Below are positions 2,502 to 40,665 of a stretch of 40,665 nt of DNA, one piece after another. The notes beneath the pieces were generated by a model, which made no database searches, was not told the DNA's origin, and was given only the letters and a program-made list of their open reading frames with translations. Numbering within the stretch: position 1 is the stretch's first letter; the number at the start of each line of letters is the position of its first letter. The position numbers and the translations under genes were made by a program. The stretch covers positions 1-40,665 of the IMG/VR virus record IMGVR_UViG_3300046514_000643. One strand, given 5' to 3'. This DNA comes from a virus.

Positions 2502-3785
2502 TCAGCGCGGGGTTTCGGGACGGTCCCAGTACTCGCCGTTCGGGCGCCACGGCAGCATGCCCGGGTGACCGCGCACGAGCCCCGTCGGCCAGTCCCGCTC
2601 CTCGCGCTGGCCGCGCCAGGAGATGAACTCCGCGGCGGTCGGGTCGTGCTCACCGCGGCGAAGGCCGAACCCGAACTCCGGCCAGCCGAGGTACAGCGAC
2701 GAGCCGCGGGGGCGCATGACCCGACGGCCGGAGCCGTCCTTGCCGTTGCCGGCGTGCGCCTCGGTGATGATCGCGCACCCGTGACGGGCCCGGATGTTGT
2801 CGAGCACCTGGACGATCGCCCGCGCGGCCTGTGAGCTGTTCTCGTCCTCGTGGTGCAGCTTGTAGAGCGGGCCGACGGCGAGGATGTCCGGCGAGGTCTT
2901 GGCCACGAAGCGTTCCAGGCGGGCCACGTCGCCGCCCTTGAGCAGGTCGATGCCCTCGGTGGCGAAGTCCATGTAGAGCTGCTTCTCCCAGCTCAGCGAC
3001 GGAAGGCCGATGGCCCCGCGGCACGAGTCGACGAGCTGGATCATCCGGCGGTACCGGCGCTTGCTCTGGCTCTTGGTGTTCTCGCAGTCGATCACCGTCA
3101 CGCGGAGCGCGCTCTCGCCGTCGTAGATCGGCTCACCGCGGAACGGATGCAATCCGGCCGCGAGGCAGCACAAGATCTGGGCGACCAGCTCGGTTTTGCC
3201 GAAGCCCTCTTCGCCGGTGATGACCATCCGGTCCATGCGCTCGATCAGGCCCGGCACCAGCCAGTCATATTCGATCTTCTCCGAGAGCAGGTCGGCCAGC
3301 GTGAACGGCTCGTCTTGATCGGCAGGGACGGCCAGCTCCTCGATCTCGTCGACCGCGAGCCGGAGCTGCGCCGCCGCCGCCGTGACCGGCAGCGAATCTC
3401 CTGCCTCCCACTCGGCATCGAGCCGCTGCATCAGCCGGTCGCACTCTTCCGCGAGCCGACGGCGGCCGTACAGCTCGCACACCCGGGAGGCGTAGCTGGC
3501 GGCGTTCCCGGGGTAGCTGTCGTGCTGGATGATCGTGGCCAGGTCGCCCGCGGGAATGCGGGAGACGAGGCCCTGATCGAGGATGATCGTGAGGACGGTG
3601 TTCGCGTCCACCTCGTCGCCGCGGATGATCATGTCGCGGATGATGCCGGCCAACACCTGGTGCTGGATTCCATAGAAGGCCTCCGGCGGCACGGACAGGA
3701 AGTGCGGCTGCACGACCAGCGGGTTCCGGAACAGCGCGCTGAGCAGGGCCCGCTCGTTCATCACGTCGTGTGCGTTTCGTGCCAC
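2502..3785 (-). CDS. DnaB-like replicative helicase/ATPase
   Basis: Protein of 427 aa with a DnaB N-terminal-like helical domain (about residues 5-130) joined to a RecA/RepA-like ATPase. Walker A is GEEGFGKT at 191-198 and the Walker B strand is DILAVGP near 300-306, followed by an IITEAHAG segment near 338-345 that fits the sensor region. It probably unwinds the phage origin after loading by the initiator encoded just upstream. The ATPase half looks closer to RepA/AAA_25 hexamers than to canonical DnaB. The GTG start at 3785 has GAGGGAG 7 nt upstream and follows the initiator stop by one base (TGACGTG). An internal ATG at 3761 is an alternative start. Confidence 0.82.
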   Translation of the reverse strand: MARNAHDVMNERALLSALFRNPLVVQPHFLSVPPEAFYGIQHQVLAGIIRDMIIRGDEVDANTVLTIILDQGLVSRIPAGDLATIIQHDSYPGNAASYASRVCELYGRRRLAEECDRLMQRLDAEWEAGDSLPVTAAAAQLRLAVDEIEELAVPADQDEPFTLADLLSEKIEYDWLVPGLIERMDRMVITGEEGFGKTELVAQILCCLAAGLHPFRGEPIYDGESALRVTVIDCENTKSQSKRRYRRMIQLVDSCRGAIGLPSLSWEKQLYMDFATEGIDLLKGGDVARLERFVAKTSPDILAVGPLYKLHHEDENSSQAARAIVQVLDNIRARHGCAIITEAHAGNGKDGSGRRVMRPRGSSLYLGWPEFGFGLRRGEHDPTAAEFISWRGQREERDWPTGLVRGHPGMLPWRPNGEYWDRPETPR

Positions 3786-3786
3786 G

Positions 3787-4767
3787 TCAGACTCCCTCGA
3801 CTTCGGTGCCGTTGCGGAACGGCTGACCCATCAGCACGCACATCAGGCCACGCCGGTAGTACTTGATCCACTGCTTGCGGTCGGCCAGCTGGAACGCCTC
3901 CGGGTTCATGCCCGGCGGCGCGCTCTTCGGGTGCGGCGCCTCGTACGTGCGGCCGGTGCGCGCGGCCACCTCTTCGGCGGCACCAGCGTGGTACTGCTCC
4001 AGGAGCCACGCCTCAGCCTCGTCGGCGGTCATCACCGGTGCGCCGTCGAACCCTGCCGTCCGGCACTCCGCGGACTCCCACACGTCACCCTTGAGCCAGC
4101 GCTCGAAGTCCTTCCGGAACTTCGCGTCCGGGTGAGCGGCGAGGTACGGCGGGATAGCGGCCTGGATCATCTCGACGGTGGTGCGCTGGATCGCGCGAGC
4201 CCACTCAGCCCACGCCGTCCTCTTCGCGCCCTTCAGTCCGTAGGCCTTCCAAGCCGCTTCGAAGTCGTCGGAATAGGCCACTTGAATGCGAGTCTTCTTC
4301 TCAGTCTTCTCAAGATCAGTCTTCTTATTTATCGACTGGTTATCCGTGGACGGATTTTCAGTCGACGGTCCGACCTGGGGGTCTGTGGTGTTTTCGCTGG
4401 TCGCGTCCACCGACTGAAAACCCGTAGACGGTGAACCCGTCAGCGGTCGCGTCTCGGGGTTATCGGTGACCTGCCACGTCCACGTCCACAGTCCGCCGTC
4501 ACCGGCGCGCTTGGTGCGGAGCAGGTAGCCCGTGTCCTCCAGCTGCTTCAAGGCGTTGGTCACGGCGTCGCGGCCCTCGACGCATGAGCGGTCCAGCTGG
4601 CCACGATCGAGCTGCCAGCCGTCCGGCAGGGAGATCATGTACCCGAGCAGGCAGCGCGCGAGCGCCTTCAGCGGAACGGGGAGCTGGCCGCGCTGGAAGG
4701 CGTTGGCCACGATGGTGTACTGGTCCGCGGGCAACGGCGCACGGCGGAGGGTGAACTCGCCGTTCAT
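3787..4767 (-). CDS. Replication initiator with winged-helix N-terminus
   Basis: Protein of 326 aa resembling phage replisome organizers. Residues 1-110 look like a winged helix: helices at 28-46 and 55-75, then the strand pair GYLLRTKRAGDGGLWTWTW. Residues 115-165 are a low-complexity Ser/Thr/Asn/Lys linker coded by unusually AT-rich DNA. The C-terminal half, from about 170, is DnaD-like in layout (FEAAWKAYG ... FERWLKGDVW). Placement directly before the helicase gene supports origin binding and helicase loading. The linker DNA carries repeats that may be the origin (see the separate entry). The ATG at 4767 is the first in-frame start; its ribosome site (GGTGGCGAG) is weak. Confidence 0.75.
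   Translation of the reverse strand: MNGEFTLRRAPLPADQYTIVANAFQRGQLPVPLKALARCLLGYMISLPDGWQLDRGQLDRSCVEGRDAVTNALKQLEDTGYLLRTKRAGDGGLWTWTWQVTDNPETRPLTGSPSTGFQSVDATSENTTDPQVGPSTENPSTDNQSINKKTDLEKTEKKTRIQVAYSDDFEAAWKAYGLKGAKRTAWAEWARAIQRTTVEMIQAAIPPYLAAHPDAKFRKDFERWLKGDVWESAECRTAGFDGAPVMTADEAEAWLLEQYHAGAAEEVAARTGRTYEAPHPKSAPPGMNPEAFQLADRKQWIKYYRRGLMCVLMGQPFRNGTEVEGV
4260..4430. other. Candidate replication origin inside initiator gene
   Basis: This stretch is AT-rich against a GC-rich background and carries two inverted 19-bp copies: ACGGATTTTCAGTCGACGG at 4350-4368 on the plus strand and ACGGGTTTTCAGTCGGTGG on the minus strand (4407-4425 in plus coordinates), with three differences. A DnaA-box-like TTATCCGTG lies at 4340-4348. 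Phages such as lambda carry origin iterons inside the linker region of their initiator gene, which is the arrangement here. Origin function is inferred. Confidence 0.45.
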
Positions 4768-4889
4768 GCCGACTCGCCACCCTGAGGTGCGAAAATGTCG
4801 GCGGGGATGGTTACAATCAAGGCACGTGCCCTTCGCTTAGCTAATTGTCGGTGGTACGGGTCCTTGGCCGGACGAAGTTCGAAGCGTGA

Positions 4890-4924
4890 AAGAGCCGGGT
4901 CCTTGTCGGAGGGACCCGGCTCTT
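4890..4924 (-). terminator. Strong hairpin terminator upstream of initiator
   Basis: A 13-bp perfect stem (AAGAGCCGGGTCC and its complement) with a 9-nt loop, followed on the minus strand by a short U-run (UUUC). It would stop transcription coming from the small-gene operon at 5065-8337 and isolate the initiator/helicase/lysis unit. Confidence 0.8.
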
Positions 4925-4954
4925 CGCGTTGCTAGGGGGGTAACGTCTTCACGG

Positions 4955-4985
4955 CTTGGCCTTCCGTACGAGTCGGAGGGCCAAG
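4955..4985. terminator. Secondary hairpin after gene at 5065-5625
   Basis: A 12-bp stem (CTTGGCCTTCCG with CGGAGGGCCAAG, one imperfect pair) with a 7-nt loop lies 80 nt after the stop of the upstream gene. There is no U-run. It may act with the stronger hairpin at 4890-4924 as a tandem terminator. Confidence 0.5.
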
Positions 4986-5064
4986 CCCTCCACGGGGGTT
5001 CTCCGAGCATAGGCCGGGAACGGCCGTTCTCCGCCGGACTCCACGGCGCGTCGGCGATCACCCA

Positions 5065-5625
5065 TCAGAACAGGCTCTGCACTGGCTGCACGCCGCCGTC
5101 GGGCTTCCTCTCCTCGCCGGCCAGGTCCCGCGCCGCGCTCGCTCCGGCCGCGGTCAGCGTCCACAGCTGCCAGTCCGATCCCTTGTGCCGTCGAGTGATT
5201 CCGAGACCGTCGGCGGTCAGCACCGGCGCCACGAGCCAGCCGTCCACCAGCTCGCCTCGCCGCGGGCGCTCCGAGTTCTGGTCCATCTCCAGCCGCTCCT
5301 GGATCTCGAAGTCGGTCAGGTCTCCCCAGCGGTACAGCGCGAGCAGCACCGCGGCGCGCTGGGTCCCGCTCCGCGGCCGGATCGCGGCGGCCGTGGCCCG
5401 GCTCGTCGGCAGCGCATCGGCGCGCACCTTGCCCTCGCGGTTGCCCGCGGCGGTGGTGCGAATCTGGTCCTGGCCGTCGGCGAGCCGCTGGATGATGCAG
5501 TCGACCTCCAGGCGGAGACCGGCGGCCACCTGGCGAAGGTCGCCCGGCGTCCGAACCTGGTCAAGGTCGCGGGCGAGGTCGCGGGCTCGCTCGGCGCACT
5601 TCATCGCCTCGTCGAAGTGGGTCAC
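5065..5625 (-). CDS. Hypothetical protein with winged-helix-like C-terminus
   Basis: Protein of 186 aa with no family I recognise. Residues 5-75 are mostly helical and charged (ERARDLARDLDQVRTPGDL). From about residue 100 the sequence TQRAAVLLALYRWGDLTDFEIQERL reads like the first helices of a winged-helix domain, with a later LTADGLGITRRHKGSDWQLW segment as a possible wing. This suggests DNA binding. The GTG start at 5625 overlaps the upstream stop by 4 nt (GTGA), so it is translationally coupled. It is the last gene of the small-gene run and is followed by terminators. Confidence 0.7.
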   Translation of the reverse strand: MTHFDEAMKCAERARDLARDLDQVRTPGDLRQVAAGLRLEVDCIIQRLADGQDQIRTTAAGNREGKVRADALPTSRATAAAIRPRSGTQRAAVLLALYRWGDLTDFEIQERLEMDQNSERPRRGELVDGWLVAPVLTADGLGITRRHKGSDWQLWTLTAAGASAARDLAGEERKPDGGVQPVQSLF

Positions 5626-6725: not shown

Positions 6726-6895
6726 TGGTCGCCCCCAGCCGGTGCTCCGGTGACGATCTCTTCGGCGAAGACGAGCAGCGACGGAAGATCCTCGTCGTCG
6801 AGCACGGTCCACGGGTCGCTGCCGTGCTGGCGAGCCTGGACGGTCCACCGGTTCGCGTTGTCGCAAAAGACCTGGATCAGCGGCTCCTCGATCAT
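6722..6895 (-). CDS. Hypothetical small protein (57 aa)
   Basis: Short acidic protein starting MIEEPLIQVFCDNANRWTV and ending in LLVFAEEIVTGAPAGGDQ. It has no recognised domain. Support is positional: its ATG overlaps the upstream stop by 4 nt (ATGA), its stop overlaps the next GTG start by 4 nt, and codon third positions are G/C-rich like the neighbours. Confidence 0.65.
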   Translation of the reverse strand: MIEEPLIQVFCDNANRWTVQARQHGSDPWTVLDDEDLPSLLVFAEEIVTGAPAGGDQ

Positions 6896-7209
6896 GATTC
6901 ACCGTCCACTGTGTCCGGAGTGAACCATCCGACCAGAACCTTACGAATGCGCTCTTCGAGGTTTTCGGCACTGACGAAACGCCGGGAGTTGACCTCGTCG
7001 AACGTCACCAAGGTGTTTCCCTGCTTCACGCACGCAGGACAGATGTCGACCTTCGAGTAGTCGCCCCCCTTGAGGTATCGACCGATCCACCCGGAAGTGC
7101 GGATGGCGGCGCGAGCCATCGCGAGCGTGCGATCCGTGGAGACCTCCCGATCTCCGCAGACATCGCACGTGATGGTCGCCTCGTAGGTGACCTTCAGGAG
7201 GCCGGTCAT
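6892..7209 (-). CDS. Zinc-ribbon hypothetical protein (105 aa)
   Basis: Protein with two CxxC pairs, TCDVCGD near residues 14-20 and CPACVK near 55-60, which together can bind one zinc ion in a ribbon fold. Between them is a helical segment TLAMARAAIRTSGW. Such small ribbons are common among actinophage genes and may bind nucleic acid or a host protein; no function can be assigned. Both ends overlap neighbours by 4 nt. Confidence 0.75.
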   Translation of the reverse strand: MTGLLKVTYEATITCDVCGDREVSTDRTLAMARAAIRTSGWIGRYLKGGDYSKVDICPACVKQGNTLVTFDEVNSRRFVSAENLEERIRKVLVGWFTPDTVDGES

Positions 7210-7370
7210 TCCCCCTCCAGGATTGCCCGGAGACGGTCGAAGCCCTGGAGCTTGTCCTGGATCACGCCGCGCTCGTAGTCCTCGAACACGGTGCGGGCCT
7301 CGGCGATCGTCTTCTCGTCTGCCTCGAACTTCTCGACGATCTCGACGATGTCCATGATGTATTCGCCCAT
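7206..7370 (-). CDS. Hypothetical small acidic helical protein (54 aa)
   Basis: Short, highly charged helical protein (DIVEIVEKFEADEKTIAEAR ...). No family recognised; it may form a coiled coil. The ATG at 7370 overlaps the upstream stop by one base (TAATG), and its stop overlaps the next start by 4 nt. An internal ATG five codons later (MDIVEIV) is also possible. Confidence 0.6.
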   Translation of the reverse strand: MGEYIMDIVEIVEKFEADEKTIAEARTVFEDYERGVIQDKLQGFDRLRAILEGE

Positions 7371-8065
7371 TACTCCCCCTTCGGGAACGTGCGCGTGACG
7401 GAGGTCCCGCGCTCTTTGATGATCTTCGTGTGGGCATCGGTGACGGTGGCGCTGACCTGGTCCAGCTCCGCCTGAGCCAGCTCCGCCTGGAGCTTCTTGA
7501 CCTTGGTCACCTGGGGCTCGAACTTGCCCAGGCCGACGAACGTCTTCATCACGTCGGCGAGCAGCCCGGCGAGCAGTTCGCGCGAGCGATCGCCCTGGCC
7601 GGAGAACTCCGCCTGGAACAGCTCGAACAGCCGGGCCTTCGCGTCCGGCGTCTCGATGTGCGCCGCCGCGACCGCGGAGACCAGCGCGTCCAGGTCGAAC
7701 CGGTGCTCGTTGATCAGGTCGGGCCGGACGGTGATGGTGCTGCCGTCGGTGTCGACGATCGCCAGCGAGCCGTTCGGCACGCCGTCGGAGTCCCCGTTCA
7801 CTGTGAGGAGCGCGTGCTCGCGGAGCACGTCCTTCACGGTGCGGGCGGTATCAGTGAAGGCGCGGCCGTAGTCGGTGAGCGTCTCGTTCATAGCGCCGAA
7901 GCGGCGCACCAGTGCGGCGGCGTCCTCCGGCGTCTTGATCTGCCCGGCCTTGGCCAGCTCGTCGGCGAGCACCGAATCCACGCCGTCGCGGAGAGCGCGG
8001 CGGAGGTCAGGCGTTGCGGGCAGCTGACGGCCGTCGTGCAGGACCAGTTCGTTCTCGTCGGTCAC
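7370..8065 (-). CDS. Hypothetical protein (231 aa) with C-terminal coiled coil
   Basis: Unrecognised protein. Residues 1-90 are helical and acidic; the middle contains GSLAIVDTDGSTITVRPD, a likely beta segment; residues 165-215 (FEPQVTKVKKLQAELAQAEL ...) have heptad spacing of a coiled coil. The gene sits downstream of the SSB gene and of an operator-type promoter, so a DNA metabolism role is possible but unproven. The GTG start at 8065 overlaps the upstream stop by 4 nt. Confidence 0.7.
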   Translation of the reverse strand: MTDENELVLHDGRQLPATPDLRRALRDGVDSVLADELAKAGQIKTPEDAAALVRRFGAMNETLTDYGRAFTDTARTVKDVLREHALLTVNGDSDGVPNGSLAIVDTDGSTITVRPDLINEHRFDLDALVSAVAAAHIETPDAKARLFELFQAEFSGQGDRSRELLAGLLADVMKTFVGLGKFEPQVTKVKKLQAELAQAELDQVSATVTDAHTKIIKERGTSVTRTFPKGE

Positions 8066-8337
8066 TTGCGGTTCAGTCCCTTCGAGTACTCCACGAGCAC
8101 GTCGCGCGTGGGGTCGTAGTCGGTGGTGTCGAGGACTACGGCGACGACACAGCACGCGCACGAGCCGGAGATGGTGCGGCCGTCGCGTGTCGGGATGTAG
8201 ATGGTGGCCTCGATGACGTTCCCGATCACCGAGCAGACGGGGCAGGCGGCGCCGTAGTCGTCGACCTGGTCGGCCCAGACTTCGCGGTATTCCACGGTGA
8301 CGGACGGGCTGCCGGTGAGGCTGATCGTGGTGGACAT
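8062..8337 (-). CDS. Zinc-binding hypothetical protein (91 aa), leaderless
   Basis: Small protein with CPVCSV near residues 33-38 and CACC near 61-64, two cysteine pairs that probably hold zinc. The flanking sequence is mainly strands. It is the first gene of the operon that runs to 5065. Its ATG lies only 6 nt after the -10 box of a palindrome promoter, with no ribosome site, so the mRNA is probably leaderless. Its stop overlaps the next GTG start by 4 nt. Confidence 0.75.
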   Translation of the reverse strand: MSTTISLTGSPSVTVEYREVWADQVDDYGAACPVCSVIGNVIEATIYIPTRDGRTISGSCACCVVAVVLDTTDYDPTRDVLVEYSKGLNRK

Positions 8338-8343
8338 GGGTTG

Positions 8344-8372
8344 ATCGTACCCCCCATTTTGGGGGGACACAA
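8344..8372 (-). promoter_or_regulatory. Palindrome promoter 1 (upstream of 8062-8337)
   Basis: Minus-strand -35 TTGTGT (8372-8367), then the palindrome CCCCCCAAAATGGGGGG filling the 17-nt spacer (8350-8366), then -10 TACGAT (8349-8344). The ATG of the gene starts 6 nt after the -10 box. A protein bound to the palindrome would block RNA polymerase. Confidence 0.75.
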
Positions 8373-8407
8373 GTAACCCCCCGGTATCCGCGGCCGGGGG
8401 GTTACTT
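8371..8407 (-). terminator. Hairpin terminator after ssb
   Basis: A 14-bp perfect stem (AAGTAACCCCCCGG and its complement) with a 9-nt loop lies 50 nt after the SSB stop. It would end the recombination/SSB transcript. Its last bases touch the -35 box of palindrome promoter 1, so the end of one unit and the start of the next are back to back. Confidence 0.75.
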
Positions 8408-8455
8408 CTCAAGCTGGAGCGCGAGGCCTGCACACCTCGTGGCCGCTCCGTCGGA

Positions 8456-8989
8456 TCAGAAAGGCGGCTCGTCGGGGAAGCCGGCGCCGCCGCTACCACC
8501 GCCGCGGGAGAAGCCGCCGCCCTGAGGCGCACTGCCCCACGGGTCGTCGGCGGGCGGGCGACCGCCGTACTGCCCGCCGCCCTGGTTCCCGCGGTTCTGC
8601 TGGCGCTCGTAGCCATCCCCGCCGCCGCGCTGCACGCGCTTCACGGCGACCTGAGCCCAGCGAAGCTCGGGGCCGATGCCGTCCACCTGAACCTCCAGGG
8701 TGAACCGCTTGCCGCCCTCCTTGTCCTCCCAGGGGCGGTTCTCCAGGCGCCCGGTCACGATGACGCGGTCGCCCTTGCTGAGGCTCTCCGCGACGTTCTC
8801 AGCCTCTTCGCGCCAGATGTTGCAGCGGTACCAGGTCGTGTCGCCGTCGAGCCATTCGCCGGCCTGGTTCTTCTTCCGCGCGCCGACGGCGACGCTGATC
8901 GTGCAGACGGCCAGGCCGCCCGACGTGAACCGCAGCTCCGGGTCGCCGCCAAGGCTCCCGATGAAGGTGATGGTGGCCTCTCCAGCCAT
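8456..8989 (-). CDS. ssb: Single-stranded DNA-binding protein
   Basis: SSB of 177 aa that coats single-stranded DNA during replication and recombination. Residues 1-112 form the OB fold, starting ATITFIGSLGGDPELRFTSGG and including TWYRCNIWREEAENVAESL and the GDRVIVTGRLENRPW strand. Residues 115-170 are a flexible Gly/Gln/Arg-rich tail. The acidic tip DEPPF matches the bacterial SSB tip that recruits partner proteins. Its AGGAAG ribosome site precedes the ATG at 8989. It follows the ERF gene in the same unit, a common pairing in phages. Confidence 0.95.
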   Translation of the reverse strand: MAGEATITFIGSLGGDPELRFTSGGLAVCTISVAVGARKKNQAGEWLDGDTTWYRCNIWREEAENVAESLSKGDRVIVTGRLENRPWEDKEGGKRFTLEVQVDGIGPELRWAQVAVKRVQRGGGDGYERQQNRGNQGGGQYGGRPPADDPWGSAPQGGGFSRGGGSGGAGFPDEPPF

Positions 8990-34456: not shown

Positions 34457-35299
34457 CTAGCTCGTCGGCGGCGCCACGGTCGGTCGCGACGCCGGGTCGC
34501 ACGCCGCATCCCCGGCGGCGCTCAACGAGTCCGGCCCCGTCGAGTAGTGGACGACGGACTGGCACGCGCTGCCGTCCGCGGTCCACACGAACTCCTGGCC
34601 GGTCACGCTTCGCCCATCGGCGCCCGGTACGCCCTGGTCGCCCTTCGCTCCCGTGGCGCCCTTGCACGTGCCGTCCGCCTGGTCTCCGCAGTACGAGGCG
34701 ACCTGGGCGCGCACCTGCTCGTCGGTGGCGTTTGCGCCCGGCTCCCCCTGGTCACCTTTTGGGCCCTGGCACCGCGCGCTCCCGCACACCGCGGTGACGG
34801 CAGCGAGCACCTGCTCCGCGGTCGGGGCCGGGGCATCCTTCCCGGCGGCCGGGGGATGGGCGGCGTACACCTGGGCCACCAGGTCCATCACCTCGTTCAC
34901 GGTGACCGCCTTGCCCGCGATCTGCGAATTCACCAGGGCCACCACCTGGTCCCGGTCCAGGCCGGAGCTGCCGCCCACCACCGGTGCGGGCTCGCCCTGC
35001 ACGGCCTGCTTCGCCTTGTCGACGGTCGTCGAACAGGCGTTCGGGATGGCGCGCAGGTCCGCCCCGAGCTGATCCTGGCGCTTGCACAGCTGGTCCAGGG
35101 TCAGCACCGCGGGCGCCGTGTCCTGCTTCACCGCGGCGGTCTCGTTCTGCGCAGACTGGCCGGTCAGGATCACCGCGATGAACACGCCGGCCATGGCCAG
35201 CATGCCCACGATCGCGATGACCGCGAGCACCACCGTCGACGGCGGCCGCTTCTTGGCCGGCTGGTGGTCGGTCCGGGGAAGATCGTCGAGCACGGTCAT
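34457..35299 (-). CDS. Membrane-anchored collagen-like protein
   Basis: Protein of 280 aa with a short cytoplasmic N-terminus, one membrane helix (STVVLAVIAIVGMLAMAGVF near 21-40) and a large outer part. It contains Gly-X-Y segments GPKGDQGEPGANA and GATGAKGDQGVPGADG, which form a collagen triple helix, and several Cys. Such proteins may form trimers on the cell surface or envelope. It could block a second phage or act in lysis; it could also be a structural fibre, but the membrane helix argues against that. ATG overlaps the previous stop by 4 nt. Confidence 0.7.
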   Translation of the reverse strand: MTVLDDLPRTDHQPAKKRPPSTVVLAVIAIVGMLAMAGVFIAVILTGQSAQNETAAVKQDTAPAVLTLDQLCKRQDQLGADLRAIPNACSTTVDKAKQAVQGEPAPVVGGSSGLDRDQVVALVNSQIAGKAVTVNEVMDLVAQVYAAHPPAAGKDAPAPTAEQVLAAVTAVCGSARCQGPKGDQGEPGANATDEQVRAQVASYCGDQADGTCKGATGAKGDQGVPGADGRSVTGQEFVWTADGSACQSVVHYSTGPDSLSAAGDAACDPASRPTVAPPTS

Positions 35300-35628
35300 T
35301 TCGCGTCACCCTGCTTCAGCTTCTGGGCGATCTCCAGCAGATGCTCCAGCTCGCGGTTGTCCGATGTCGAGACCTGCCCGCGGAGGTAGTCCACGGTGGC
35401 CTGGGCAGGCAGTGCCGGCCAAGCGGGGTCCTGGTCCCAGCCGTTCGTGGCAGCCAGCCGCCGGACCTTGTGGCTCCACTGGAGCATGACAATACCCAGC
35501 TCAGAGGCCTCACGGGCGTCGATGGCCTCCTTGTCCTTGCGCCGGGAGCGCAGGGCCAGGGCGCCGACCACGTAGGTCACCACGGTCAGGGTGATCGATC
35601 CCAGGCCACCCAGGAGCGCTAGGTTCAC
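35296..35628 (-). CDS. Single-span membrane protein (110 aa)
   Basis: Protein with an N-terminal membrane helix (LALLGGLGSITLTVVTYVVG) followed by a charged cytoplasmic part with a coiled-coil tail (NRELEHLLEIAQKLKQGD). It could be a holin-like or spanin-like accessory. It lies between two other membrane protein genes and overlaps both by 4 nt, so the three may act together. Confidence 0.68.
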   Translation of the reverse strand: MNLALLGGLGSITLTVVTYVVGALALRSRRKDKEAIDAREASELGIVMLQWSHKVRRLAATNGWDQDPAWPALPAQATVDYLRGQVSTSDNRELEHLLEIAQKLKQGDAK

Positions 35629-36035
35629 CGGTCCCCCTTCGGTTTCACGTCGCGCGAGTAGCTCGCGGCGAGGATCCAATGGACGGCGGCCAGCGAGCAG
35701 CACACCACGGGGAGAATGTGCGTTCCCCCATTGGCCCAGGCCCCGACCTCCAGCACGAACGCGAAACCGAACCAGGCCGATCCGGTCGCGAGGTGGGCGA
35801 GGTGCAGGAGCTTGCGCGTCCACAGCGCGGCGACAAGGAACAGGCCGGTGAGCCCGAACCAGATGATCCATATCGGCCCGACGGCCGCGAGCTGGAGCAC
35901 CACCTTCGTGGTGAGCGGGTTACGCGGGTAGGCCACGCCGGGGAAGACGTTCATGACGGCCACGAGCAGCTGGACGACCGTCAGCGCGAAGGACTGCTGC
36001 CACCGGCCGGCGATGTACGGGTGCGTGCCGACCAT
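35625..36035 (-). CDS. Four-helix membrane protein (136 aa)
   Basis: Protein with four hydrophobic helices (SFALTVVQLLVAVMNVF, VVLQLAAVGPIWIIWFGLTG, HLAHLATGSAWFGFAFVLEV, ILPVVCCSLAAVHWILAA). Function unknown; it could change host membrane properties or act in superinfection exclusion. AAGGAGG lies 6 nt before the ATG at 36035. It is the first gene of a three-gene membrane set. Confidence 0.72.
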   Translation of the reverse strand: MVGTHPYIAGRWQQSFALTVVQLLVAVMNVFPGVAYPRNPLTTKVVLQLAAVGPIWIIWFGLTGLFLVAALWTRKLLHLAHLATGSAWFGFAFVLEVGAWANGGTHILPVVCCSLAAVHWILAASYSRDVKPKGDR

Positions 36036-38712: not shown

Positions 38713-39056
38713 GCTGCCTCCCATCGGCCGTTTCGGATAAACCCGTGGTCCCCGCATGCACGGCACAGGATCGAAGGCTCGATGTGGAGCGGCTCGCTGC
38801 TCACAAGAGTCCAGGTCGCGCGGCCGTCCTCACGCATCCAGGCCGGAAGCTGGGGAATGTCGAAGTACACGCCACCGGCCGCCCACCTGCCTTCCTGGCA
38901 GTGATGCCACACCGCGTAGCCGATCACCGTCTCTTCGTCTTGCTGGACGAACGGGCTCAGCATGTGCTCGTTGCCGATGTAGATCGCTTCCTGGGCATCA
39001 GGGTCCCGGCTCCACGGGTGCGGAACCTTGGCGCCGATCTCTGGCTCCGTGCTCAC
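38709..39056 (-). CDS. DUF6527-like protein (115 aa)
   Basis: Protein whose C-terminus reads LHIEPSILCRACGDHGFIRNGRW, which fits the DUF6527 pattern (a conserved PS...C..HFxIxxG motif) seen in many phages; function unknown. The N-terminal part is mixed, with HHCQEGRWAAGGVYFDIP. It carries several Cys/His that may bind zinc. GTG at 39056 overlaps the portal-MuF stop by 4 nt. Confidence 0.66.
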   Translation of the reverse strand: MSTEPEIGAKVPHPWSRDPDAQEAIYIGNEHMLSPFVQQDEETVIGYAVWHHCQEGRWAAGGVYFDIPQLPAWMREDGRATWTLVSSEPLHIEPSILCRACGDHGFIRNGRWEAA

Positions 39057-40665
39057 CGGGGTGCCCTTCGCTCGATCCAAGCTCGCTGGACCTCGACGAT
39101 ACGGTCCCGCTCCGCGGTGGTGCGCTGGCTCCACGTGCCCGTGCGCCCGGCCGCTTCGTCGAGCCCGGCCAGCACGCGCTCGTGGTGCGCCGCCGGCGAA
39201 TCCGGCAGGTCGGCCATCAGCGCGATGTCATCGGCATCGTCCAGCGCCCAGGCGTAGACGGTGTCGCACATGCAGCCGGAGTGGTCGCCGGGCTTGAGGT
39301 GCGTCCCTACCCATTCGGCCGCCGGCGGGGAGATCAGGGCCGGGTCCTCGAACCCCTCGAACTTGCGGCCAGCCAGGTTCAGGTGAGGCTCGAAGGCGTT
39401 GGACCTCGGTGTGATGCCGTAGCGCCAGGTGAACCCGATCCGCTCCGCGTGGGTGTCGACGGCGCGGAGCAGGTCACCGCCCAGTGCGATCCCGCCCGGT
39501 CCGGCGTGCGGCCCGCCGATTTCGGCCAGCGCCTCGCGGATGTCGCCCGGCAGGATCACCGAGTCCGGCACCTCGCCGCGGAGCTGGTCGCCGTGGCGGC
39601 CGTACATCGCGTCCGTGGCGCGCGAGCGGAGCGTACCTTCGAGCTTCTTCCAGGCCGCGGGGATGCGGTCGGTCATGGCTTGGGTGAGCGCGGCCACCGC
39701 GGTGAGCGGCAGGCCGACCATGCCGGCGACCGTCTTCACCGAGGCCTTGATCGTGGCCGCCGACCACTGGGCGAACTTGCTGGCCAGGTAGGAGAAGGCC
39801 AGCGTGAGCAGCACGTCCTCGGTGAGCCCCAGCTCGGTGACGCGCACCTGACCCAGGGTCCGGCCGGCCAGCGCGGGCGGCACGTCCTTCAGCTCCGCAG
39901 CCAGGGCGGTGAACTTCCGGCCCTGGACCTGGGCCTTGATCTTGGCCCCCGCCTTCTCCAGGGCCCGCTGAAGGTCAGCTTCAGCGGTCGCCCGGATGCG
40001 CTCGATGAGGTCGTGATCGAGGTCGGCCAGGCGGTCGCCCGTGATGATCTTTACTGAATCGAGTACTCCCTGCGGACCTGCCGCACTCGCGACCCTGGCG
40101 CCGGGCGGTGCCGCCTGGGGCGTTCCCTGGGGCGGGGCGGCCTGGCCTGGGCCGACCTGCTTGACCGGCGCGGAGGTGATGACCGGCGGCGTGCCGGGCG
40201 CGGCGGGTGGCTGAATCGGGTTGCCGTTGGAGTCCAGGATGCGATCGTTGTTCGGGATGATCGCTTTCACCCCGAGCAGCTCCGCGGCGATCTGGGTCAG
40301 CGTGTTCGGGTCCGGCCTCGTCGCCTTGATCATCATGATCTGCTGGAGGTCTTCTTCCTGCGGGGCGTCGTCCTCGCCGAAGCCCTTCGCCGTGCGGTAG
40401 GCCTTGAAGCTGATGGCGCCCCGGTCCATCGCCTGGTCAGCGTCCTGCGAGCGGTTCGCGTTCTCCGTCAGGTTGCCCGCGGCGTACCACAGCCGGACGC
40501 TCTTGGCCTCCTCCTTGGTCAGCCCGTAGCCACCGTCGTCCACCGACAGCATCAGCATGCGGCGGTACCAGGAGTTCGTCAGCGAGTCGACGATCAGCCG
40601 GCACGTGGGCTCAAGGTGGTTCTTGAAGGCCTGGGCGTCGATGAGCCACGCCGTCCAGTGGTTGG
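39053..40665 (-). CDS. Portal-MuF fusion protein (5' end outside window)
   Basis: 536 residues are visible; the gene continues past the right edge, since the open frame runs to the end. The first part (NHWTAWLIDAQAFKNHLEPT ... DADQAMDRGAISFKAYRTAK) is portal C-terminus, the dodecameric DNA channel. After a Pro/Gln-rich linker, the C-terminal part is helical and then shows a MuF-like pattern (TWRYGITPRSNAFEPHLNL ... GDHSGCMCDTVYAW) whose Cys/His set may bind zinc. Joined portal and MuF genes are known but not common. It is the first virion gene seen in reading order. Confidence 0.8.
   Translation of the reverse strand, partial: NHWTAWLIDAQAFKNHLEPTCRLIVDSLTNSWYRRMLMLSVDDGGYGLTKEEAKSVRLWYAAGNLTENANRSQDADQAMDRGAISFKAYRTAKGFGEDDAPQEEDLQQIMMIKATRPDPNTLTQIAAELLGVKAIIPNNDRILDSNGNPIQPPAAPGTPPVITSAPVKQVGPGQAAPPQGTPQAAPPGARVASAAGPQGVLDSVKIITGDRLADLDHDLIERIRATAEADLQRALEKAGAKIKAQVQGRKFTALAAELKDVPPALAGRTLGQVRVTELGLTEDVLLTLAFSYLASKFAQWSAATIKASVKTVAGMVGLPLTAVAALTQAMTDRIPAAWKKLEGTLRSRATDAMYGRHGDQLRGEVPDSVILPGDIREALAEIGGPHAGPGGIALGGDLLRAVDTHAERIGFTWRYGITPRSNAFEPHLNLAGRKFEGFEDPALISPPAAEWVGTHLKPGDHSGCMCDTVYAWALDDADDIALMADLPDSPAAHHERVLAGLDEAAGRTGTWSQRTTAERDRIVEVQRAWIERRAPR

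Follow-up and report, generated by a model that had tools for sequence, protein, structure and literature searches.

The replication origin of this soil phage most probably lies within its own initiator gene, in the part coding for the linker of the protein, and would be of the kind found in lambda, SPP1 and TP901-1 (we place the probability at roughly 85%). The window, the whole stretch of DNA analysed, is the complete IMG/VR record of 40,665 bp, with a mean GC content of 68.4%. Iterons, an AT-rich tract, the neighbouring genes and an exchange of the cassette among relatives are directly visible in the sequence (Table 1). An earlier note had proposed 4260-4430 as a candidate origin, and as a candidate it is supported by iterons located next to the lowest-GC tract, by a matching layout in relatives, by a lambda O control and by the exchange of this block together with the winged-helix (wHTH) domain.

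Table 1. Features of the candidate origin and the flanking genes, in window coordinates
Feature	Position	Strand	Basis and remarks
DnaB-like helicase gene, directly downstream	2502-3785	-	PF13481 AAA_25 (7e-28), PF00772 DnaB N-domain (1e-6), phrog_19
Replication initiator gene, 326 aa	3787-4767	-	N-terminal winged helix, disordered linker (residues 106-163), helical C-terminal domain
Exchangeable cassette: wHTH and linker/putative origin	4277-4763 (replaced in L004)	-	blastn junctions, segment identities
AT-rich tract, purine-rich on coding strand	4285-4344	.	Lowest-GC 60 bp of record; proposed unwinding/helicase entry region
AAGAAGACT element, copy 3	4291-4299	-	Pattern match
GAGAAGACT element, copy 2	4303-4311	-	15-bp step; rank 5 of own matrix
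AAGAAGACT element, copy 1	4318-4326	-	Rank 2 of own matrix
Iteron 2, CCGTCCACGGATAAC	4339-4353	-	Proximal pair; rank 2 of foreign iteron matrix, whole window
Iteron 1, CCGTCGACTGAAAAT	4354-4368	-	Proximal pair, 15-bp step; rank 1 of foreign iteron matrix
Iteron 3, CCACCGACTGAAAAC	4407-4421	+	Distal pair, inverted; matrix rank 4; inverted-repeat partner
Iteron 4, CCGTAGACGGTGAAC	4422-4436	+	Distal pair, weakest of the four; rank 75; second half of 31-nt arm
Possible degenerate fifth iteron, CAGGTCACCGATAAC	4459-4473	-	Rank 32; direct repeat GGTTATCsGTG

The initiator protein and the genomic neighbourhood

The host gene of the repeats codes for a replication initiator. Its translated product matches the replication initiation protein family phrog_270 (e-value: 5.5e-19) as well as DnaD-like helicase loader and O-like families, with a weak profile match to phrog_345 'O-like' (e-value: 4e-7), while no Pfam family was matched. 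A scan of genome contigs yielded one weak relative (35% identity over 98 residues), a sequence search of solved structures gave one marginal match (2p4w; e-value: 0.033), and the best Foldseek matches, to a Geobacillus DnaB (5wtn; best e-value: 5e-3) and the N-domain of B. subtilis DnaD (2v79), are weak. In the AlphaFold model (19 sequences; mean pLDDT: 60.5), a confident winged helix is predicted at residues ~35-100, residues 106-163 are mostly of pLDDT below 50 and lack secondary structure, and a helical domain begins at residue 165. By this model the protein is an initiator of the wHTH, DnaD-like type, with an N-terminal winged helix, a disordered linker and a helical C-domain, and the low-complexity linker that had been pointed out earlier is borne out. 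The helicase that had been said to follow is likewise encoded by the next gene downstream, as identified by Pfam and PHROG matches, and the initiator/helicase pair also occurs in Gordonia phages.

The gap upstream of the initiator gene contains a perfect 13-bp GC-rich inverted repeat (AAGAGCCGGGTCC/GGACCCGGCTCTT; 4890-4924), which is also found in the relative L004 and resembles a terminator stem or a hairpin with a regulatory role; it lacks a T run. Scans for sigma70 promoters and terminators returned nothing informative.

An AT-rich tract beside inverted iterons

The AT-richness attributed to 4260-4430 was confirmed (GC content: 52.0%), and the minima of the whole record fall here for segments of 60 bp (4285-4344; 38.3%, vs 48.3% for the next lowest), 100 bp (4259-4358; 44%) and 170 bp (4259-4428; 51.2%). 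The AT-rich part proper spans ~4276-4344, next to the repeats at 4332-4441, so that a putative unwinding tract adjoins the iterons. The 19-bp inverted repeat with three differences that had been described is indeed present, as the best-matching inner part of a longer pair (4334-4364/4411-4441) with 31-nt arms complementary at 25/31 positions. Among inverted pairs with partners up to 300 bp apart this is the best of the record (31.0 bits vs 24.3 for the next), and it ranks third among all local repeat pairs, behind two direct repeats in coding sequence. Its proximal part (4332-4365) is a near-palindrome by itself (z -4.7).

Each arm comprises two 15-bp units in tandem. The proximal arm, CCGTCGACTGAAAAT followed by CCGTCCACGGATAAC on the minus strand from 4368 to 4339, abuts the AT-rich tract (4276-4338), while the distal arm consists of CCACCGACTGAAAAC and CCGTAGACGGTGAAC on the plus strand, from 4407 to 4436. 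The initiator gene therefore harbors an array of four ~15-bp iterons, two adjoining the tract and two inverted and more distant, and the coding strand of the tract carries three (A/G)AGAAGACT elements. The exact iteron pair occurs once in the window and is present in the record of L002, which is 99.6% identical and carries the same cassette; it was found neither elsewhere in the window nor in the records of L003, L004 and L012. A matrix built from 33 units of 13 other phages with visible tandem 15-mers at the same place was applied to both strands of the window (~81,300 positions) and placed three of its iterons at ranks 1, 2 and 4, while column-permuted matrices equalled its number of top-10 hits in the region in 3/200 trials. 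Because the seeds (33 for the iterons, 17 for AAGAAGACY) were chosen by eye with the window repeats already seen, this check is strong but not blind, and its register could lean towards the window repeats.

Low-complexity linkers rich in K, N, T, S and P could by composition give AT-rich, repetitive DNA, leaving a feature of the protein only, and the bias of TnnT to one strand of the window tract is fully accounted for by the amino acids. Synonymous-codon shuffles of the initiator gene, which keep the protein, nevertheless matched the inverted pair in 0/100 trials (0/40 in a second run), the repeat copies are spread over the two strands or over different reading frames, and third-position GC in the linker is below that of the rest of the gene in 26/27 GC-rich genes, which makes a purely protein-level cause very unlikely. 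The initiator ORF has the highest z (9.2) of the 32 window ORFs tested by synonymous shuffling, two others also giving 0/40, namely 8062-8616 (z 5.2) and 35296-35871 (z 3.5). This separation was obtained with matches weighted by base rarity; with unweighted matches, the first statistic employed, the window was not separable from the shuffles (27/60, 18/60). The second-strongest inverted repeat by synonymous shuffling, at 8369-8409 in ORF 8062-8616, has near-perfect arms around AAGTAACCCCCCGG.

The DnaA-box-like TTATCCGTG at 4340-4348 differs from TTATCCACA at 3/9 bases and is the complement of iteron 2, while the whole window contains zero sites with 0-1 mismatch to TTATCCACA and 27 with two mismatches, against 27.9 by chance. 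An origin dependent on DnaA through TTWTNCACA-type boxes was as such rejected. Cumulative GC skew, suggested by the earlier note as a check, shows no extremum at 4260-4430 (minimum ~12 kb, maximum ~26 kb), an outcome that is not decisive, since the record is only a fragment and skew carries little weight as evidence in phages. In G004, the record of L012, the window ends (1 and 40665) lie ~20 kb apart, and the complete genome is thus probably ~60 kb in size, near that of the 61.4-kb relative G003. Window positions 39000-40665 are absent from the record of L002, and megablast of window 1-25000 against phages gave no match.

Exchange of the winged helix and linker iterons among relatives

In three relatives the region in question has been replaced. 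Near the initiator gene the window matches L003 and L004 in blastn blocks of 93-95% identity, and L012 at 91% downstream and 83-84% upstream, while the replaced block extends from the start codon to the linker end in L004 and comprises 4277-4876 in L003 and 4036-4769 in L012. The C-domains of the window, L003 and L004 are 96-97% identical, vs 21-34% for their winged helices. The winged helix of L004 is of another class, and its linker contains four copies of GGGGTCTCAAATTGAGACC-type sites which are translated in two reading frames, indicating that the DNA rather than the peptide is conserved. A further initiator, L037, shares with L004 the wHTH (78% identity) and the iteron GGTCTCAAATyGAGACC, but a C-domain of only 20% identity, while its C-domain is 64% identical to that of L012, from which its wHTH differs (21%). 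Since L037 combines the wHTH and iteron of L004 with the C-domain of L012, the iterons travel with the wHTH, the presumed reader, and not with the C-domain in the set compared. We consider this exchange the strongest evidence for a predicted initiator-embedded origin.

A swapped block with its junction at the linker end could also represent a recombination scar, with the AT-rich stretch being recently acquired foreign DNA and the repeats marking a mosaic junction or serving as a recombination signal. The wHTH part of the exchanged cassette is, however, not AT-rich, and low GC is limited to the linker, as it is in unexchanged relatives and in lambda; we regard this origin of the repeats as highly improbable.

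In L012 the central C-domain (residues ~130-235) has been swapped too, with the last ~85 residues kept (80% identity to the window), so that at least three exchangeable pieces make up the mosaic initiator. Nor is the initiator cassette the sole mosaic site, as 6897-7374 and 6736-7374 have no blastn match to L003 and L004 while their flanks match well.

For an origin embedded in the initiator gene, we infer binding, melting, helicase loading and use in infection from the sequence as follows. Dimers of the N-terminal winged helix would bind the four ~15-bp iterons (4339-4368, and inverted at 4407-4436), the nucleoprotein complex would melt the adjoining AT-rich, strand-asymmetric tract (4276-4338), and the C-terminal domain would recruit the DnaB-like helicase encoded by the next gene, from which point the fork starts. 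Recombination would swap the reader along with its site, without touching the helicase-facing C-terminal part, a joint exchange that is possible because protein and site lie within one gene.

Iterons across the wHTH initiator family

The comparison was extended to 46 wHTH initiator genes, or 43 after removal of three near-duplicates. From 37 viral-locus entries, eight repeats or identical copies were dropped (L028, L036, L053, L032, L051, L059, L060 and L061), and L062 (short ORF), L063 (ORF at the contig end) and L064 were also excluded. Ten fetched initiators of Ruthgordonvirinae and other phages, namely Schmidt, Vendetta, Catfish, TinaLin, Dardanus, Gsput1, Banquo, TZGordon, Hum25 and LitninMcQueen, featured in two early repeat tests only and were left out of the 46-gene analyses because they have N-terminal domains of a different type.

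The strongest short-range repeat cluster is located 10-80 codons after the winged helix in 42/46 genes (39/43 non-duplicate genes, vs 11.7 expected by length), and the lowest-GC 60 nt fall in the same linker in 37/46 (34/43 without near-duplicates). Cultured phages that share the arrangement seen in the window include the Microbacterium phages MO526/Nicole72 and the Gordonia phage Cafasso. Repeat clusters were reached by at most 1/40 synonymous shuffles in 26/46 genes, while the genes above this limit include L003 (7/40), L012 (30/40), BeatusComedenti (9/40) and fHoEfm07 (10/40), and in L003 and L012 the cluster alone does not rise above the shuffles. In an earlier test on 17 genes, at most 1/100 shuffles reached the best inverted pair in 5/17, and at most 1/50 reached the 16-mer cluster in 11/17. 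The recurrence of the linker position in 39/43 genes bears on the reading of the repeats as an autoregulatory operator, at which the initiator wHTH would control its own transcription with the origin elsewhere. Iteron-binding initiators often autoregulate, and the window repeats are near-palindromic, but they lie ~330-430 bp inside the gene rather than at its start and beside the lowest-GC tract, and a search of 4200-5100 for sigma70-type promoters, a weak test in GC-rich phages, gave no match, making an operator an improbable explanation.

Besides the iterons, 28 copies of the pattern [AC]AGAAGA[ACT][ACT] were counted in the 46 linkers, 16 of them in one frame and 12 in a second, against two in the remainder of these genes, a density of 2.9 vs 0.08 per kb. 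The AAGAAGACY pattern, the definition of which was made after looking at the sequences, is found in the linkers of 17/46 genes and absent from the other 29, a distribution that hints at a DNA element beyond plain AT-richness.

A second class of wHTH initiators (MSIxxMTxVW...ALADSANDEG; L037-L052) contains ~20-bp palindromic iterons in the same linker, many of the form ACCCCCGnAnnnnnTnC. In Mantel tests on the full set of 43 genes, the similarity of iterons correlates with that of the winged helices (r 0.33; 0/2000) and less so with that of the C-terminus (r 0.09; 33/2000). Within class II the correlation with the winged helix amounts to r 0.47 (0/2000), while within class I iteron similarity does not track wHTH similarity (r 0.01), which may reflect noise of the automatic iteron extraction or may be real.

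As a tentative and rather doubtful extension, the wHTH initiators of Actinobacteria and Firmicutes phages might share a two-part origin code. In the first part, the wHTH class would set the iteron class, either 15-bp CCGnCnnnGGAwAAy or ~20-bp palindromes, with reader and site moving as one cassette. In the second, the adjoining conserved purine-rich AAGAAGACY block, with copies 13-16 bp apart in two reading frames, would position strand opening or helicase loading on one strand, like TnnT pairs for DnaD. If so, near-identical phages could come to differ in replication specificity through fast exchange of cassettes and thereby evade origin decoys, superinfection or satellites. To our knowledge, origins are unmapped in most actinobacteriophages, and the layout described here, with 15- or ~20-bp iterons in the linker after the wHTH and an AT-rich tract on the C-terminal side, provides a testable search place in many phages. 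Cassette exchange in near-identical genomes furthermore offers natural pairs for matching protein residues to the iterons read.

Comparison with known origins

At oriC of B. subtilis, DnaD binds TnnT pairs on one single strand (PMC10201434). The initiator fold weakly resembles the N-domains of DnaD and DnaB, and the most TnnT-dense 60 nt of the whole record are found on the plus strand at 4293-4352, a polarity shared by the AT-rich tract of lambda. Unlike the DnaD recognition element, however, the density in the window is an effect of amino-acid composition (14 TnnT observed vs 14.4 in synonymous shuffles; 100/100 shuffles reach it). Across the family, TnnT was reached by at most 5/100 shuffles in 18/46 genes, and a DnaD-like reading of the AT-rich tract is offered as a hypothesis.

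RepA of the actinobacteriophages Miko and Rachaly is described as necessary and sufficient for extrachromosomal replication in a 2020 study of RepA mycobacteriophages, which suggests, as in lambda, an ori within repA or adjacent to it (PMC7157519). That suggestion parallels the origin placement proposed here for a RepA-like initiator, but the study reports no repeated motifs, whereas repeats are present in the window. It was the only study on the topic to come up in a search of largely open-access literature for iterons in actinobacteriophage RepA-like genes. Similarly, SPP1, with oriL in gene 38, and the staphylococcal phage 80alpha, with ORF20, are described as having a DnaD-type replisome organiser gene with its own origin, the latter from the loss of ORF20 not being complemented in trans, from which an embedded ori is inferred in PMC5499656. 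Their modules differ from the one in the window in using helicase loaders.

The rep gene of lactococcal phage TP901-1, in which we take its ori to lie, encodes a homologous wHTH initiator (30.6% identity over residues 14-144), and the linker contains both its best 15/16-mer repeat cluster and its lowest-GC tract, although the genome, unlike that of the window, is AT-rich. Its repeats exceed synonymous shuffles at a length of 16 (0/50) but not of 15 (5/40).

A close parallel in layout is with lambda, where four near-palindromic iterons and, after them, an AT-rich tract, both needed for ori function, lie in the linker-coding part of gene O, upstream of a helicase-recruiting gene (PMC7466680). 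The lambda iterons are 18 bp long, vs ~15 bp and a 2+2 inverted arrangement in the window, and the next gene here encodes a DnaB-like helicase in place of a loader such as P. O-iteron specificity varies among lambdoid phages. Membership of the lambda O family by sequence homology was rejected, as no significant BLASTP match was obtained. When applied to lambda O, the same script recovered precisely the four iterons of the NC_001416 annotation and placed the lowest-GC tract next to them, a positive control that upholds the lambda-like embedded origin cited as precedent by the earlier note.
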